Positions 8,820 to 28,084 of a stretch of DNA of 43,145 nucleotides are shown piece after piece. Position 1 is the stretch's first letter; each line of letters begins with the position of its first letter. The translations under genes were made by a program, and so were the position numbers. The DNA comes from Halobacteriales archaeon SW_6_65_15 (GTDB lineage: Archaea > Halobacteriota > Halobacteria > Halobacteriales > Haladaptataceae): the NCBI GenBank assembly GCA_003023465.1, contig PXSM01000083.1, forward strand, positions 13,051 to 56,195. The letters run 5' to 3'. The notes under the pieces are model-generated. The model worked only from the letters and a program-made list of their open reading frames with translations. It was not told the origin of the DNA and ran no database searches.

Positions 8820-9008
8820 GCTTCTGGCGCACGACCCGTTCGACGCTGCTTCGTCCGCGACAGTTCGAAGTCGCACTCCCGAAAATGTGAGTGAAGTGTC
8901 TAGGAAATTAGCAGTATCGACAGAATCATCAGAGGAGACGGAGAGCGAATATATGTCTTTACTCATAAAATTTAAGTACTGCAGTTATGTATCTATAATT
9001 GGTCCACA

Positions 9009-9101
9009 ATGGATCACTTCATCGAAGAACTCGGCGAGGACGACGTTTCAGAGGTTGAGAGCCGCAAGAACACTCGGGTCACCTGCCCCCTCTCCTGCTG
9101 A
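9009..9101 (+). CDS. 30-aa small peptide, candidate RiPP precursor
   Basis: ATG...TGA encoding MDHFIEELGEDDVSEVESRKNTRVTCPLSC. Preceded by an AT-rich promoter-like stretch (ATAAAATTTAAGTA) and followed by a T-run (TTTTTT, about 9129). Sits beside M50 and ATP-grasp genes. Confidence 0.55.
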   Translation: MDHFIEELGEDDVSEVESRKNTRVTCPLSC

Positions 9102-9227
9102 ACGACGGGGAGCGGTCTGACCCGCCGTTTTTTATCGAATGAGCGAACGGAGGATGAGCCACCGGTGTCGGACCATCGAGTTCGACAGTTTCGTTTCTGG
9201 TCGATGTGAGGCGTTCGTCGTGGATAT

Positions 9228-10154
9228 TCAAAAGTACGCGAACAGGTCGAAGAAGTCCGCCGCGTACAGGAGCGTCGAGAGCAACACGAAGACCCCGAAG
9301 CCGTACGAGAGAACGACGTATCCGGCAGCGAGGGACGCGTTCCGCTCGCGAAGGTCCGCCGTTCCTCTGGTCCGCAGATCGACTACGTCGAACGTGTCGA
9401 TCATCAACAGGTAGCCGTCCCCGTGGATGAGCGGGTTCAGACTGAACAGGAGCTGGGAGACCGACGCGACCATCGTAACCTCCAGCACGAGGTTCCCGGG
9501 CAAGAGCAGGACGTAGATCGCGAGCACGACGAGGAGCCAGACGACTTCGACGAACGGCCCGGCCAGCGTGATCCAGCGTCTTCGGTTGCGCGGGAGCATC
9601 CACGCCCCGGTCGCGTCCGTAACGACGGTCAGGAGCACCCCGTTGACGAAGCCGAGACGTAACGACGGGTCGAGGAACGGTTTGCTCGCCAGATAGTGGC
9701 CGAGTTCGTGGTTGGCGACCGTCAGCGCCACCAGTACGGCGACGAGACCGATGGTTTCGGGGGCGTACAGCGCGGGGTCGGAGAAGATGCCGTCGGTAGA
9801 GAAGACCCCGGGGAGGACCGTCCAGATACCGAACAGGCTGAGCCCGAACAGCACGACGAACGCCACCACTCGCGGCCAGAGTCGGATGTCGTCCGGCGGA
9901 ACGAGACGGACGACGGGTTCGTCGGGGCGAAGGTATCCCTCCTCTCGCAACTGACCGACCAGTTCCTTCGGGGTCCCTTCGAGGTCGTCTTCCGGCAGTT
10001 CGCCGGTCGCTAGCTTCTCCAACAGGGCGACCGCTCTGTCGGAGAGCCGTCGGAGGTCCCCGTTCGGATTCCGAATGTACGTCTCCCCCTCGACCTCTAT
10101 CCGGGTGAATCCCACGACCGCATCGGGCCGTTCCGTCTCTGTTTCCATCGTCAC
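9228..10154 (-). CDS. M50 (site-2-protease-like) membrane metallopeptidase with PqqD/RRE-like N-terminal domain
   Basis: NHELGHYLAS (HExxH), NPLIHGDGYLLMIDTFDVVDLRTRG, several TM segments. N-terminus GETYIRNPNGDLRRLSDRAVALLEKLATGELPEDDLEGTPKELVGQLREEGYLRPDEP resembles a PqqD-type fold. Confidence 0.75.
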   Translation of the reverse strand: MTMETETERPDAVVGFTRIEVEGETYIRNPNGDLRRLSDRAVALLEKLATGELPEDDLEGTPKELVGQLREEGYLRPDEPVVRLVPPDDIRLWPRVVAFVVLFGLSLFGIWTVLPGVFSTDGIFSDPALYAPETIGLVAVLVALTVANHELGHYLASKPFLDPSLRLGFVNGVLLTVVTDATGAWMLPRNRRRWITLAGPFVEVVWLLVVLAIYVLLLPGNLVLEVTMVASVSQLLFSLNPLIHGDGYLLMIDTFDVVDLRTRGTADLRERNASLAAGYVVLSYGFGVFVLLSTLLYAADFFDLFAYF

Positions 10155-10172
10155 GTGTTTCGAATGGAGAGA

Positions 10173-11105
10173 TTACAACAGGTACTCGGCGAGTGCATCG
10201 GAAACGCCCAGGTCGGCGTGTTTGTCTGGTGCGACGAACCGGGGTGCCTCGTTCAACTCCAGCAGTGCGTACGTCCCGTCGGGACGCCGACGCACGTCGG
10301 CGGCCGCGAAGGTGAACCCCGTCACGTCGGCCGCTCGGAGCAGCGCGTCTTCCAGCTCGTCCGAAACCGTGATGGGCTCGATCTCGACCTCCTCACCTTT
10401 CCCTTCGACCACGGCGTGCTGGAACGAGAAGTACTCGCTCTCGTACCTCGCGGCCCCGATAACCTCCCCGTCCAGGACGTACACGCGGAGGTCTTCGCCC
10501 TCGACGAACTCCTGGAACTGCACCGGCGCGGTCGCGAGATCGTCGAGTCGCTCGTCGAGGTCCTCCTCGGTCAGCTTCTTCGGCACTGCTCCTTTGGTGA
10601 TGGGCTTGTACACGACTTGCTCGTGTTCGTCGTAGAACGACCGGACTTCGTCGGGGTCGTTCGTGAACAGGGTGTCTGGAATCGGTACCCCCTCGCGGTC
10701 GTACAGGTGCAACTGTAGCGGCTTCCGGTCCTGCCAGTAGTGGTTCTCCAGCGGAACGATCACGTTTGCGTACTGTTCGAGCGTTCCGCAGAGGCTCTCG
10801 AACAGCCCGCGGTGCTCCCGAAGCTGGTTGAGCGTCGGGCGGACGTGTTCTTGGAGGCTCTCGGTGAACGCCGGGTCCGTCGGATGGAAGACGTGATGGG
10901 AGGCGACGTACGCGCCCGTCACGTCCTCGAACTCGATGTGCGATCCGAACACGGCCTCGTCGCTCTCGGGCTCGTACTTGAGCGTGTCCTCGCTCGGCCA
11001 GTCGGCGACGTCGCAGGTGATTGCGGTTCCACCCCGCTCTTCGACCGCGTCGGCGACGAGACCGAACTCCGGCTGGTCCGCGAAGCCGACTATTACGACA
11101 GTCAT
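10173..11105 (-). CDS. ATP-grasp ligase (RimK/MvdD-like)
   Basis: VYKPITKGAVPKKL, FQEFVEGEDLRVYVLDGEVIGAARYES, AADVRRRPDGTYALLELNEAPRFV are typical ATP-grasp motifs. AT-rich promoter-like sequence directly upstream. Confidence 0.8.
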   Translation of the reverse strand: MTVVIVGFADQPEFGLVADAVEERGGTAITCDVADWPSEDTLKYEPESDEAVFGSHIEFEDVTGAYVASHHVFHPTDPAFTESLQEHVRPTLNQLREHRGLFESLCGTLEQYANVIVPLENHYWQDRKPLQLHLYDREGVPIPDTLFTNDPDEVRSFYDEHEQVVYKPITKGAVPKKLTEEDLDERLDDLATAPVQFQEFVEGEDLRVYVLDGEVIGAARYESEYFSFQHAVVEGKGEEVEIEPITVSDELEDALLRAADVTGFTFAAADVRRRPDGTYALLELNEAPRFVAPDKHADLGVSDALAEYLL

Positions 11106-11251: not shown

Positions 11252-11680
11252 TCACGCGATCTGCCACGTCCAGCGCGAGTCGAGGTAGTACCGGTAGATG
11301 CCACTGATGACGATGGCCAGTCCGTTGGCGACGAGGTACATCAGCCCGGTCCAGTTGACGAACGCCCAGAGGAGCGCGACCTGTATCGGAATCGCGCTTC
11401 CGCGGACGACGTTGGTCCGGAGCAGTCCCACGAGGTAGTCGTACGGGGCGGTGTACCGGGAATGCTGGAACGTCCACGCGTTGTTCGCCACGTACTGGAG
11501 GATGATCGTCAACTCGATGGCCCCGACGGCGGCGAAGATGTAGTTGATTTTACCCAGATCGACGAGTACCCACAGCACCGCCGTCTGGACGAGCGCGGCG
11601 CTCGCCCCGACGATGCCGAACCGATAGAGGCGGACGACCGTCGGATGGCTCGTCACGTTCCGGTATCCGGAGTCCCCCAC
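11252..11680 (-). CDS. GtrA-family membrane protein
   Basis: RLYRFGIVGASAALVQTAVLWVLVD...YVANNAWTFQ...NGLAIVISGIYRYYLDSRWTW. Confidence 0.82.
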   Translation of the reverse strand: MGDSGYRNVTSHPTVVRLYRFGIVGASAALVQTAVLWVLVDLGKINYIFAAVGAIELTIILQYVANNAWTFQHSRYTAPYDYLVGLLRTNVVRGSAIPIQVALLWAFVNWTGLMYLVANGLAIVISGIYRYYLDSRWTWQIA

Positions 11681-25908: not shown

Positions 25909-26083
25909 ACCCCGGACGAATGACTGCTTGGTAATGAAACTTCCACTTCACTCTGTCTAACCACTTTATTTGTGAATGTCCTTTACTGAAGTTGGAATTA
26001 CCCAACTTCTTATCCTCGGTCCCCACTAACAGGGAGCGAGTACCCTAGTAATCTAAAGATCTTTGTCTAACTTAGCTCTTGAG

Positions 26084-26593
26084 TTATAAAGAACCGTTGC
26101 CTTCCCTATTAGCTGTTTGTGCTTCCATTGGTGTGAGTTGCATCCATGGAACTATCCCCTCAAATGAATCAGAAAGAAGACTACCTATTGGATTAAGGAT
26201 TTCCCTAAGGAGTCCTGATTCTAAGTGGGCAATAAACTCTGAATCCAGATATTCGTACTCTTGTTCAAGCCACGTTGAGTGGTATCTCTCAAGGTCAGAC
26301 TGCTCTCCAGGAACGAAAATCAGACATGTAACTTCAACGCTACCAAATCGCTGTGAATCGTTTTCTTGGTTAATATCATCTATCGTATCAACAAGTGCTT
26401 CGTCGGCTGGAAAGAGTTCTAACTCAAGGGTCGCACGGCACGAAAGGCCAGAGGGGTCAGTACGTAGCTCAGGATCAGTTACGTTAAAAGAGCTAAAAAC
26501 AGATCCCATAACTGGTTCACCGATGATGGGATCAGCATCTATTTCTACTGATTGAACATAATACTCTGGTATTCCTAGTTGAGGAATCATCAC
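26084..26593 (-). CDS. hypothetical protein in AT-rich island; faint SecB-like appearance
   Basis: 169-aa ORF. Beta-rich N-terminal half, then EFIAHLESGLLREILNPIGSLLSDSFEGIVPWMQLTP; family not certain. Confidence 0.65.
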   Translation of the reverse strand: MMIPQLGIPEYYVQSVEIDADPIIGEPVMGSVFSSFNVTDPELRTDPSGLSCRATLELELFPADEALVDTIDDINQENDSQRFGSVEVTCLIFVPGEQSDLERYHSTWLEQEYEYLDSEFIAHLESGLLREILNPIGSLLSDSFEGIVPWMQLTPMEAQTANREGNGSL

Positions 26594-26610
26594 ATCACTT
26601 TTTAGTTATG

Positions 26611-27078
26611 TTAATCATATTGATGTAGTTGTCTTTGATTCCATCCCAAAATAGGCTCGTTACCTGTTTCTTGATCGTGGTAGTTATCGGCCCGCCTTGA
26701 CCCTCTCGCTGAATGAGGGGCCTGATCAACAGTACCGAGTGAATGTAAGAGACAATCGACGAATCGTTTCCCGTAAGTTGTCACCTCGTAGTAAGTACTG
26801 TATTCCTCGCCGTCCGTATCGCTAATCCGTTTACTGATGATTCCAGCGTCCTTGAGACCGTCAAGCGCATCACTGAGACTTTGCGAATGAATATCCAGCT
26901 TATTTTTGAGCTCAGTGAACGATTGGTCGCCGTCCTCAAGCAGACATGCGACGGTTGCCTGCGCATTATCGTTATGCATGACTCCCAGTGCAACTCTGAT
27001 TTCTCGTGGGAGCAGTTCGACGTACGCCGATTTGTTCGACTTATCCGTGGTAGTCTCGTTTTCTGGGGTCATGGTCAA
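26611..27078 (-). CDS. winged-helix transcriptional regulator
   Basis: QATVACLLEDGDQSFTELKNKLDIHSQSLSDALDGLKDAGIISKRISDTDGEEYSTYYEVTTYGKRFVDCLL wHTH pattern. Confidence 0.75.
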   Translation of the reverse strand: MTMTPENETTTDKSNKSAYVELLPREIRVALGVMHNDNAQATVACLLEDGDQSFTELKNKLDIHSQSLSDALDGLKDAGIISKRISDTDGEEYSTYYEVTTYGKRFVDCLLHSLGTVDQAPHSARGSRRADNYHDQETGNEPILGWNQRQLHQYD

Positions 27079-27264
27079 CCTTTCTTGATCTGCATTCGAT
27101 GATTCGGCATTGCACCACTTAAATGTATGGGCGGATTGGTGACATGGTCAACCGATATTGACTAGCCGTATTAATGAGAAAGATGTTGGCTATAGTGGGA
27201 GGTGTATTCATTGGAATAGAGTCAAGATTTAATGACCACAGAGTTACGGGCTTAGCAGTAGAGA

Positions 27265-27981
27265 ATGGATGTCGCAAAAACGATGACTGATCCATTTGAG
27301 GATGGACTGAGTGGAGCGCGCGAAAAGATAGAGCAATTCTCAAATAAAGTTCTCCGCCCATACTTAAAGATACATATATTCGGTCCATACGAAGGAGATT
27401 GTGAGAACTATCTCCGAAAGGTGACATTAGGGTTGCAGGAACACGGGTATGAAAAGACGGCTATTTGTAGTGATATTGAAGGCAGGCCCCCGGAGAGTGC
27501 TTGTAGAAAAGAAAAAGCAAGATATTGGAAACAGAAAAGTTACGATTTTTTGGAATTTTCTGATGTGGCTGTTTTCTTTTTCTTAAAGAATACGCTTGAT
27601 CGGTCGGAGACACTACCAGAAGATGCTTTCGATAATGATAAATTCGTGGATAATCTGCCCGATGACGAGGAGCCGATTGACATAGAGCGTGAGGTGCAGG
27701 ATCTTAATGCATCACCAATTCAGGAGCTAAACCACTGGTTCAAGGAACTTGATGGAGAGCCAGAAAGATCTATGGCACTATTTGAAAGTGGATGCCATGA
27801 TCGTATAGGGCCAATATTTGCCGCCGAAGTTGACTCAGCTAAGATGTATGTTGAAGATGAACTGCCAGATCATGATGTGGAAACAGCTATACGAAGGGTA
27901 AATGGGGCTGCAAAAGAATGGGTGAACAAACACTGTAAGCGTCTTCTACAAGAGCGGTATTATAGAGATCAAATAGAATAG
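27265..27981 (+). CDS. accessory protein with possible nucleoside-deoxyribosyltransferase/TIR-like N-terminal fold
   Basis: LKIHIFGPYEGDCENYLRKVTLGLQEHGYEKTAICSDIEG...KSYDFLEFSDVAVFFFL: IFGPY strand-turn followed by SDVxVFFF strand. Low GC. Confidence 0.6.
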   Translation: MDVAKTMTDPFEDGLSGAREKIEQFSNKVLRPYLKIHIFGPYEGDCENYLRKVTLGLQEHGYEKTAICSDIEGRPPESACRKEKARYWKQKSYDFLEFSDVAVFFFLKNTLDRSETLPEDAFDNDKFVDNLPDDEEPIDIEREVQDLNASPIQELNHWFKELDGEPERSMALFESGCHDRIGPIFAAEVDSAKMYVEDELPDHDVETAIRRVNGAAKEWVNKHCKRLLQERYYRDQIE

Positions 27982-28084
27982 AGGGCCTCGTTATTAGTTT
28001 ATTCCAACCCATACATTTGGAACGTCTTGACGATATTCAAATCCGCCCCAACCGCTAAGTCCGCGCTCGGTGAACCCCAGACGC

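Follow-up and report, generated by a model that had tools for sequence, protein, structure and literature searches.

Graspetide synthetases phosphorylate a carboxylate, which is then attacked by a hydroxyl or amine, as established for the plesiocin enzyme PsnB and the microviridin enzymes MvdC/D. A survey with 43 graspetide groups names a single archaeal one in its main text, from Thermoprotea (group 36; PMC13097080), and the main text of a further graspetide survey mentions archaea in general terms alone (PMC8939145). The classes given in an archaeal RiPP survey are YcaO, radical-SAM, lanthipeptide and lasso, without graspetides, and two papers on haloarchaeal RiPPs leave graspetides unmentioned (PMC12144867, PMC10105419). 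Within the main texts of these graspetide surveys and archaeal RiPP papers we found no haloarchaeal graspetide described, with a listing in the supplements being possible. As for peptide maturation, the leader-protease step of microviridin biosynthesis was described as enigmatic until 2026 (PMC13039773).

Here we analyse a haloarchaeal locus in which a gene for a 30-aa peptide faces two enzyme genes, one for an ATP-grasp ligase and one for a protease of the M50 family; it lies in a stretch of 43,145 nucleotides, which as a whole is referred to as the window. We consider this to be, with good probability, a small RiPP locus of graspetide descent in Halorussus, in which the ligase would join a peptide carboxylate to Thr, Ser or Cys, leaving the M50 protease to free the core. 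Taken as a predicted unit, the trio speaks for a small family of signalling or defence peptides with closed rings.

Layout and conservation of the locus

The features of the locus are as follows.

8967..8976, + strand: AAAATTTAAG, a BRE/TATA-like promoter element of archaeal type, 33-42 bases before the ATG of the peptide gene, read from the sequence
9009..9101, + strand: precursor peptide gene encoding MDHFIEELGEDDVSEVESRKNTRVTCPLSC, 30 aa
9009..9074, + strand: predicted leader with HFIEEL block, acidic spacer and R-K-N-T block; the boundary to the core is a prediction
9072..9098, + strand: predicted core TRVTCPLSC, which holds two Thr and one Ser, ends in CxxxC and is free of Asp and Glu
9103..9133, + strand: terminator-like imperfect hairpin (CGACGGG...CCCGCCG, one mismatch) followed by a T6 run, read from the sequence
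9228..10148, - strand: M50 (site-2-protease-type) intramembrane metalloprotease, 306 aa, with HELGH and NPLIHGDG
9879..10148, - strand: N-terminal soluble domain of the M50 protein, about 90 aa, a possible PqqD/RRE-like winged helix
10173..11105, - strand: ATP-grasp ligase of the graspetide-synthetase family (PsnB/MvdC/MvdD), 310 aa

The initial annotation had placed the unannotated peptide ORF between an AT-rich promoter-like region and a T-run, with the two enzyme genes facing it, and all of these elements were found where they had been described, the peptide sequence agreeing exactly. The AT-rich stretch upstream contains TTTAAG at 8971-8976, and an A-run together with a TTTAAG/TTTAT/TTTAATA-type element lies about 25-40 bases before the ATG in most homologous peptide loci. 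The T-run at 9128-9133 is located 3' of the imperfect hairpin. Both enzyme genes start with ATG, lie on the same strand with 24 bases between them and converge on the peptide gene on the opposite strand.

An ORF of just 30 codons could be a chance reading frame, the enzymes then belonging to another pathway. However, a profile of 31 homologous peptides from which the window's own had been excluded recovered the peptide among the 475 ORFs of the window at E=7.7e-9, with the best other ORF at E=2.3, and a similar peptide is present at every M50 locus outside the window. On the grounds of this leave-one-out test and the comparative evidence, the chance reading is refuted, and we assign it practically no weight. 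The peptide gene is single-copy in the source genome (62% complete), and third codon positions take most substitutions in three of the four close homologue pairs. In two RefSeq plasmids carrying the locus (Halorussus salilacus and Halocatena salina), the peptide gene is without annotation in the PLSDB gene table, which is incomplete; such precursors are missed because they are so short.

A search with the M50 protein across 394 genomes of the order yielded matches in 17, the window's own included, with one pair of related genomes carrying two each; this amounts to 19 M50 genes, namely 18 loci outside the window and the window itself. All 18 adjoin an ATP-grasp gene and a short ORF resembling the window peptide, with a leader of the form [HT]F[IV]ExL...R-x-[NQS]-[TA] followed by a variable core; examples include MKHFVEDLNESDVEDVENRTNTVVSTPITWFGG, MEHFIENINEEDFAEVEERENTYYTGGCIAYC, MSKHYIEALDESDEIDLEERTNALYKTGPNGDIFV, METFIEALGEEEDLEDREQTMYTSDPTWDSQ and MSDKTDDPVHFVEDLEERSNAATLDSITTLATGECPEKCS. 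Conservation of the peptide beside the same enzymes in relatives, which the initial annotation had named as a check on its proposal, was thereby borne out at each of these loci. A scan of genome contigs using a single sequence gave no matches; the family alignment then recovered named relatives. With the ATP-grasp profile, further loci were found in the genus and in three haloarchaeal families, and some two dozen related archaea carry the complete trio. Since the loci without a nearby M50 gene (L093, L094, L095, L151 and L154) retain the peptide, we regard ATP-grasp and peptide as the core pair, accompanied by the M50 protease in most loci.

No conserved exporter or extra tailoring enzyme was found across the related loci, and the sole other widely recurrent neighbour is a gene in nine loci of a Natrialba-type family, which probably reflects shared chromosome context. 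In the window, a GtrA-family membrane protein is encoded at 11252-11680, just past the ATP-grasp gene and on the same strand; in related loci it did not emerge as a conserved neighbour. At some distance, G+C falls to 43-45% over the 2 kb at 26001-28000, compared with 60-70% for the window; this island looks recently acquired and holds ORFs for a winged-helix-like regulator (26611-27078, -) and a 238-aa protein (27265-27981, +). Three Halorussus loci (L028, L029, L030) carry two diverged tandem ATP-grasp paralogues with one peptide and one M50 gene, an arrangement that suggests two successive modifications. Locus L151 (G512:C17, 4849-6051), with no M50 gene nearby, harbours three tandem precursors with HFVADL leaders and differing cores (TTQACYETGC, TTFAIGEE and TTANHFEE) beside one ATP-grasp gene, plus a more distant fourth candidate, and is by its gene content a predicted multi-precursor graspetide cluster.

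Families of the two enzymes

The best solved match of the ATP-grasp enzyme is the structure 7drm (file title: 'ATP-grasp domain-containing protein'), which we take to be PsnB, the plesiocin graspetide synthetase. This match was obtained at E=1.8e-36 with the single sequence and at 4e-72 over the full length with the family profile, compared with about 1e-22 to 1e-26 for other graspetide synthetases and 1e-18 or weaker for RimK-type ligases; the corresponding profile scores were 246 bits for PsnB, 96 for the next graspetide-type enzyme and at most 69 for RimK-type enzymes. The family's likeness to PsnB thus exceeds that to RimK, the N-terminal pre-ATP-grasp region included. TIGR04187 matches all family members (22/22), and the TIGR04187, MvdC and MvdD models match the window enzyme far under the curated NCBIfam cut-offs; RimK, LysX and MptN models also match the family. 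These comparisons uphold the earlier assignment of the enzyme to the graspetide synthetases rather than to a small-molecule family.

The M50 assignment was upheld as well. In all 19 M50 proteins, H147, E148 and H151 of HELGH and D244 of NPLIHGDG are invariant, and the window protein combines the HExxH motif and distal Asp that define M50/site-2 proteases within transmembrane helices modelled with high confidence (mean pLDDT of the AlphaFold model, 91.9). Pfam Peptidase_M50 matches 19/19 members, with the window protein below the gathering score; NCBIfam daptide_HExxH matches 19/19 and YydH/LiaK 13/19, with the window protein far below both cut-offs. Judged from these matches, the protein is distantly related to the RiPP proteases of daptide and epipeptide (YydH/LiaK) systems, and it is the likely leader protease. 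Distant bacterial M50 relatives occur in Candidatus Symbiothrix (L063) and on a Tistrella mobilis plasmid (L066), with no family ATP-grasp detectable nearby.

The N-terminus of the M50 protein had been described as resembling PqqD. Its first 90 residues are modelled as four strands, two or three helices and one strand, and hhalign aligned this domain in register with haloarchaeal PqqD-like domains at 37% probability (P=3.5e-4), whereas none of 30 column-shuffled controls exceeded 0.9% and an unrelated winged-helix family reached 0.9%. Searches of the PDB with Foldseek using the whole model and the N-terminal domain gave no significant match, nor did Pfam PqqD match the N-terminus. The profile comparison makes a PqqD-like domain plausible, if less firmly than first described; we do not claim the fold, because Foldseek gave no significant match.

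Precursor leaders and two enzyme clades

The precursors of the haloarchaeal loci are 28-60 aa long and combine a conserved leader with diverse cores. An HFIEEL-type block of the pattern [HTQ][FYLV][IV]x[DEANS][LI] is present in all 32 peptides, with or without a neighbouring M50 gene. By comparison, R-x-[NQS] occurs in 25/25 peptides with a neighbouring M50 gene and in 3/7 without, an association with a hypergeometric probability, calculated by hand, of about 0.001 that was noticed post hoc and in which a single locus contributes three of the seven peptides lacking an M50 neighbour. Based on this difference in M50 dependence, the first block is likely recognised by the ATP-grasp enzyme, while the R-K-N-T block likely marks the region cleaved by the protease. 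A Glu/Asp-rich stretch precedes R-x-N-T in all members of both clades described below, and every core that can be delimited contains one or more Thr, Ser, Lys or Cys residues.

A maximum-likelihood tree was calculated from 37 archaeal ATP-grasps and PsnB. The 35 haloarchaeal and PsnB enzymes split into two clades, one comprising 13 haloarchaeal enzymes and PsnB (clade A; support 96/92) and the other comprising 21 enzymes including that of the window (clade B). Placement of PsnB is less sure than the split itself because PsnB sits on a long branch. Clade A stems from genera other than Halorussus, and the cores of its precursors show TTxxxxE, in most cases with E or C as the next residue (TTMALGEE in Halovivax, and TTLAVGEE, TTLATGEC and TTANHFEE) and sometimes repeated; this is the motif known from plesiocin-type graspetides. 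Clade B precursors lack a TTxxxxE(E/C) core, except for an isolated TTYFCLE in L025; one clade B enzyme (L153) is without a confidently assigned peptide. Clade and core type agree with a residue triplet of the enzymes: the 13 TTxxxxE-type enzymes all keep D-[FY]-R, like the D-F-R of PsnB, whereas in 21/21 window-type enzymes it is replaced by [ST]-[FY]-[KQ], with S-F-Q in the window. The Arg of G-[DE]-[DE]-x-R, the equivalent of PsnB Arg213, does not vary among the 37 enzymes that were aligned with PsnB.

A separate, more distant group of archaeal ATP-grasps keeping D-[FY]-R comprises L096, L155 and L156, whose hosts are Halorussus, a second haloarchaeal family and a lineage of the phylum outside the haloarchaea; beside these three, no leader-matching peptide was found. 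Likewise, no convincing TTxxxxEE peptide was found beside bacterial plasmid relatives of the ATP-grasp enzyme in Burkholderia and Phyllobacterium.

Graspetide cores combine Thr, Ser or Lys nucleophiles with Asp or Glu donors, e.g. in TTxxxxEE; the sister-clade precursors with TTxxxxE show this combination, whereas the window core does not. Four clade B cores are acid-free: TRVTCPLSC of the window, TVVSTPITWFGG, PALTGVMGNVYFGA and TYYTGGCIAYC, the latter three ending in WFGG, YFGA and CIAYC. Some other clade B cores contain D or E. The tail TPITWFGG is common to L021 (STPITWFGG) and L094 (PTPITWFGG) with diverged flanks, and its retention argues that the acid-free stretch is the part that matters. 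In both clades, CxxxC recurs near the precursor C-terminus (CPLSC, CIAYC, CPEKC and CDGAC in the window, L023, L034, L036-L038, L093 and L097), which suggests a possible disulfide or other Cys cross-link besides the ATP-grasp chemistry.

Proposed chemistry, alternatives and known systems

In the proposed pathway, the peptide would be expressed from its own promoter and dock on the ATP-grasp ligase through the HFIEEL block. The ligase would then activate a peptide carboxylate as acyl phosphate and join it to a Thr/Ser hydroxyl or Cys thiol with loss of water, before the M50 protease cuts near the R-x-N-T block and frees a modified core of about 8-9 residues, whose CxxxC may close a disulfide. 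We infer that such a product could act as a secreted signal, an antagonist or a protease inhibitor.

For clade A, the predicted carboxylate donors are plainly the Glu residues of TTxxxxE. For the window, the acid-free core TRVTCPLSC makes classical side-chain-to-side-chain graspetide chemistry impossible within the core; the carboxylate used would thus most likely be the C-terminal one, giving a macrolactone or thiolactone between a side chain and the C-terminus, with a leader acid as second choice. Our tentative proposal, which we hold with clear reservation, is that clade B has done away with donors in side chains and forms the ring at the C-terminal carboxylate, either as a macrolactone to Thr/Ser or as an AIP-like thiolactone to Cys in CPLSC. 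The initial annotation had considered that a Cys-terminated core of this kind may carry an undescribed modification, an idea which the comparison of the two clades sharpens for the acid-free core. At the level of sequence, what counts against a graspetide reading is that the window core is without the Asp/Glu donor that defines graspetides and that the ATP-grasp enzyme is without D-x-R; the scores of both enzymes far below the curated NCBIfam cut-offs and the lack of a conserved exporter also weigh against it.

Three other accounts of the enzymes and the peptide were weighed. An ordinary graspetide could have its donors in the presumed leader, for instance with an ester between a VSEVES Glu/Asp and a Thr of the core and with cleavage further upstream than R-x-N-T, a proposal that would make use of the acidic stretch before R-x-N-T found in all members and can draw on the D or E of other clade B cores. 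Yet this acidic region is conserved leader in both clades, the TTxxxxE of clade A comes after R-x-N-A, and L021 and L094 retain just the acid-free TPITWFGG tail while the flanks change, so that we judge this account unlikely. Slightly less probable still is that the ATP-grasp enzyme is RimK-like and extends the peptide at its C-terminus, by one amino acid or several or by an amine, without forming a ring, the M50 protease then releasing the extended peptide. RimK ligases act on C-terminal carboxylates, and acid-free cores make the C-terminus the obvious substrate; the matches to RimK, LysX and MptN models and the altered D-x-R triplet in the window's clade also fit such an addition. It is opposed by the much closer relationship to PsnB, which extends to the pre-ATP-grasp region, by the TTxxxxEE cores of the sister clade, typical of ring-forming graspetides, and by the nucleophilic residue (Thr, Ser, Lys or Cys) found in every delimitable core.

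The peptide might also be a small signal or regulatory peptide matured by the M50 protease alone, linear or with a CxxxC disulfide, the ATP-grasp enzyme acting on something else. The small size, the dedicated intramembrane protease and the recurring CxxxC (CPLSC, CIAYC, CDGAC, CPEKC) would suit this role, but the ATP-grasp enzyme is the more constant partner and several loci pair it with the peptide without an M50 gene; we consider maturation by the protease alone very improbable.

Returning to the reading as a locus of graspetide descent, the closest described system is plesiocin (PsnA/PsnB, graspetide group 2), with which the locus shares an ATP-grasp closest to PsnB by sequence and tree, a haloarchaeal sister clade with TTxxxxEE-type cores and repeats, and a single ATP-grasp in most loci. 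It differs in that the loci are archaeal, with precursors of 28-60 aa and a dedicated M50 protease in most, and in that the window's clade is without TTxxxxEE, has several cores without Asp/Glu and replaces D-x-R by [ST]-[FY]-[KQ]. A PDB search with a clade A precursor found no PsnA chain. With microviridin MvdC-MvdD and TIGR04187 (GRASP_SAV_5884, tgmB), the ATP-grasp superfamily with its pre-ATP-grasp region is shared, whereas the window enzyme scores 89.9 and 80.2 against cut-offs of 350 and 475, a PFFARFL leader is absent and the neighbours are different. The nearest named relatives of the M50 protein, the daptide M50 protease (NF041824) and the YydH/LiaK epipeptide protease (NF058609), are likewise RiPP-associated intramembrane HExxH proteins, to whose models the window protein scores 43.4 bits, below the curated cut-off of 300, and 26.7 (cut-off 225), respectively; daptide and epipeptide systems, however, employ other modifying enzymes.

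Haloarchaeal lanthipeptides (PMC12144867, PMC10105419), some also from Halorussus, similarly have small Cys/Thr/Ser cores but are made by LanM, whereas in the present loci ATP-grasp and M50 are the only conserved neighbours. The Thermoprotea graspetides of group 36 belong to another phylum and have another co-occurring protein, and haloarchaea are unnamed in the main text of that survey (PMC13097080). The window family would add graspetides to the haloarchaea and pair them with a dedicated leader protease. Its two sister clades, with and without core carboxylate donors, form a natural comparison that allows a direct test of which groups a graspetide synthetase is able to activate. If true, C-terminal ring closure would give graspetides a new type of linkage, occurring in haloarchaeal peptides freed by an intramembrane protease.
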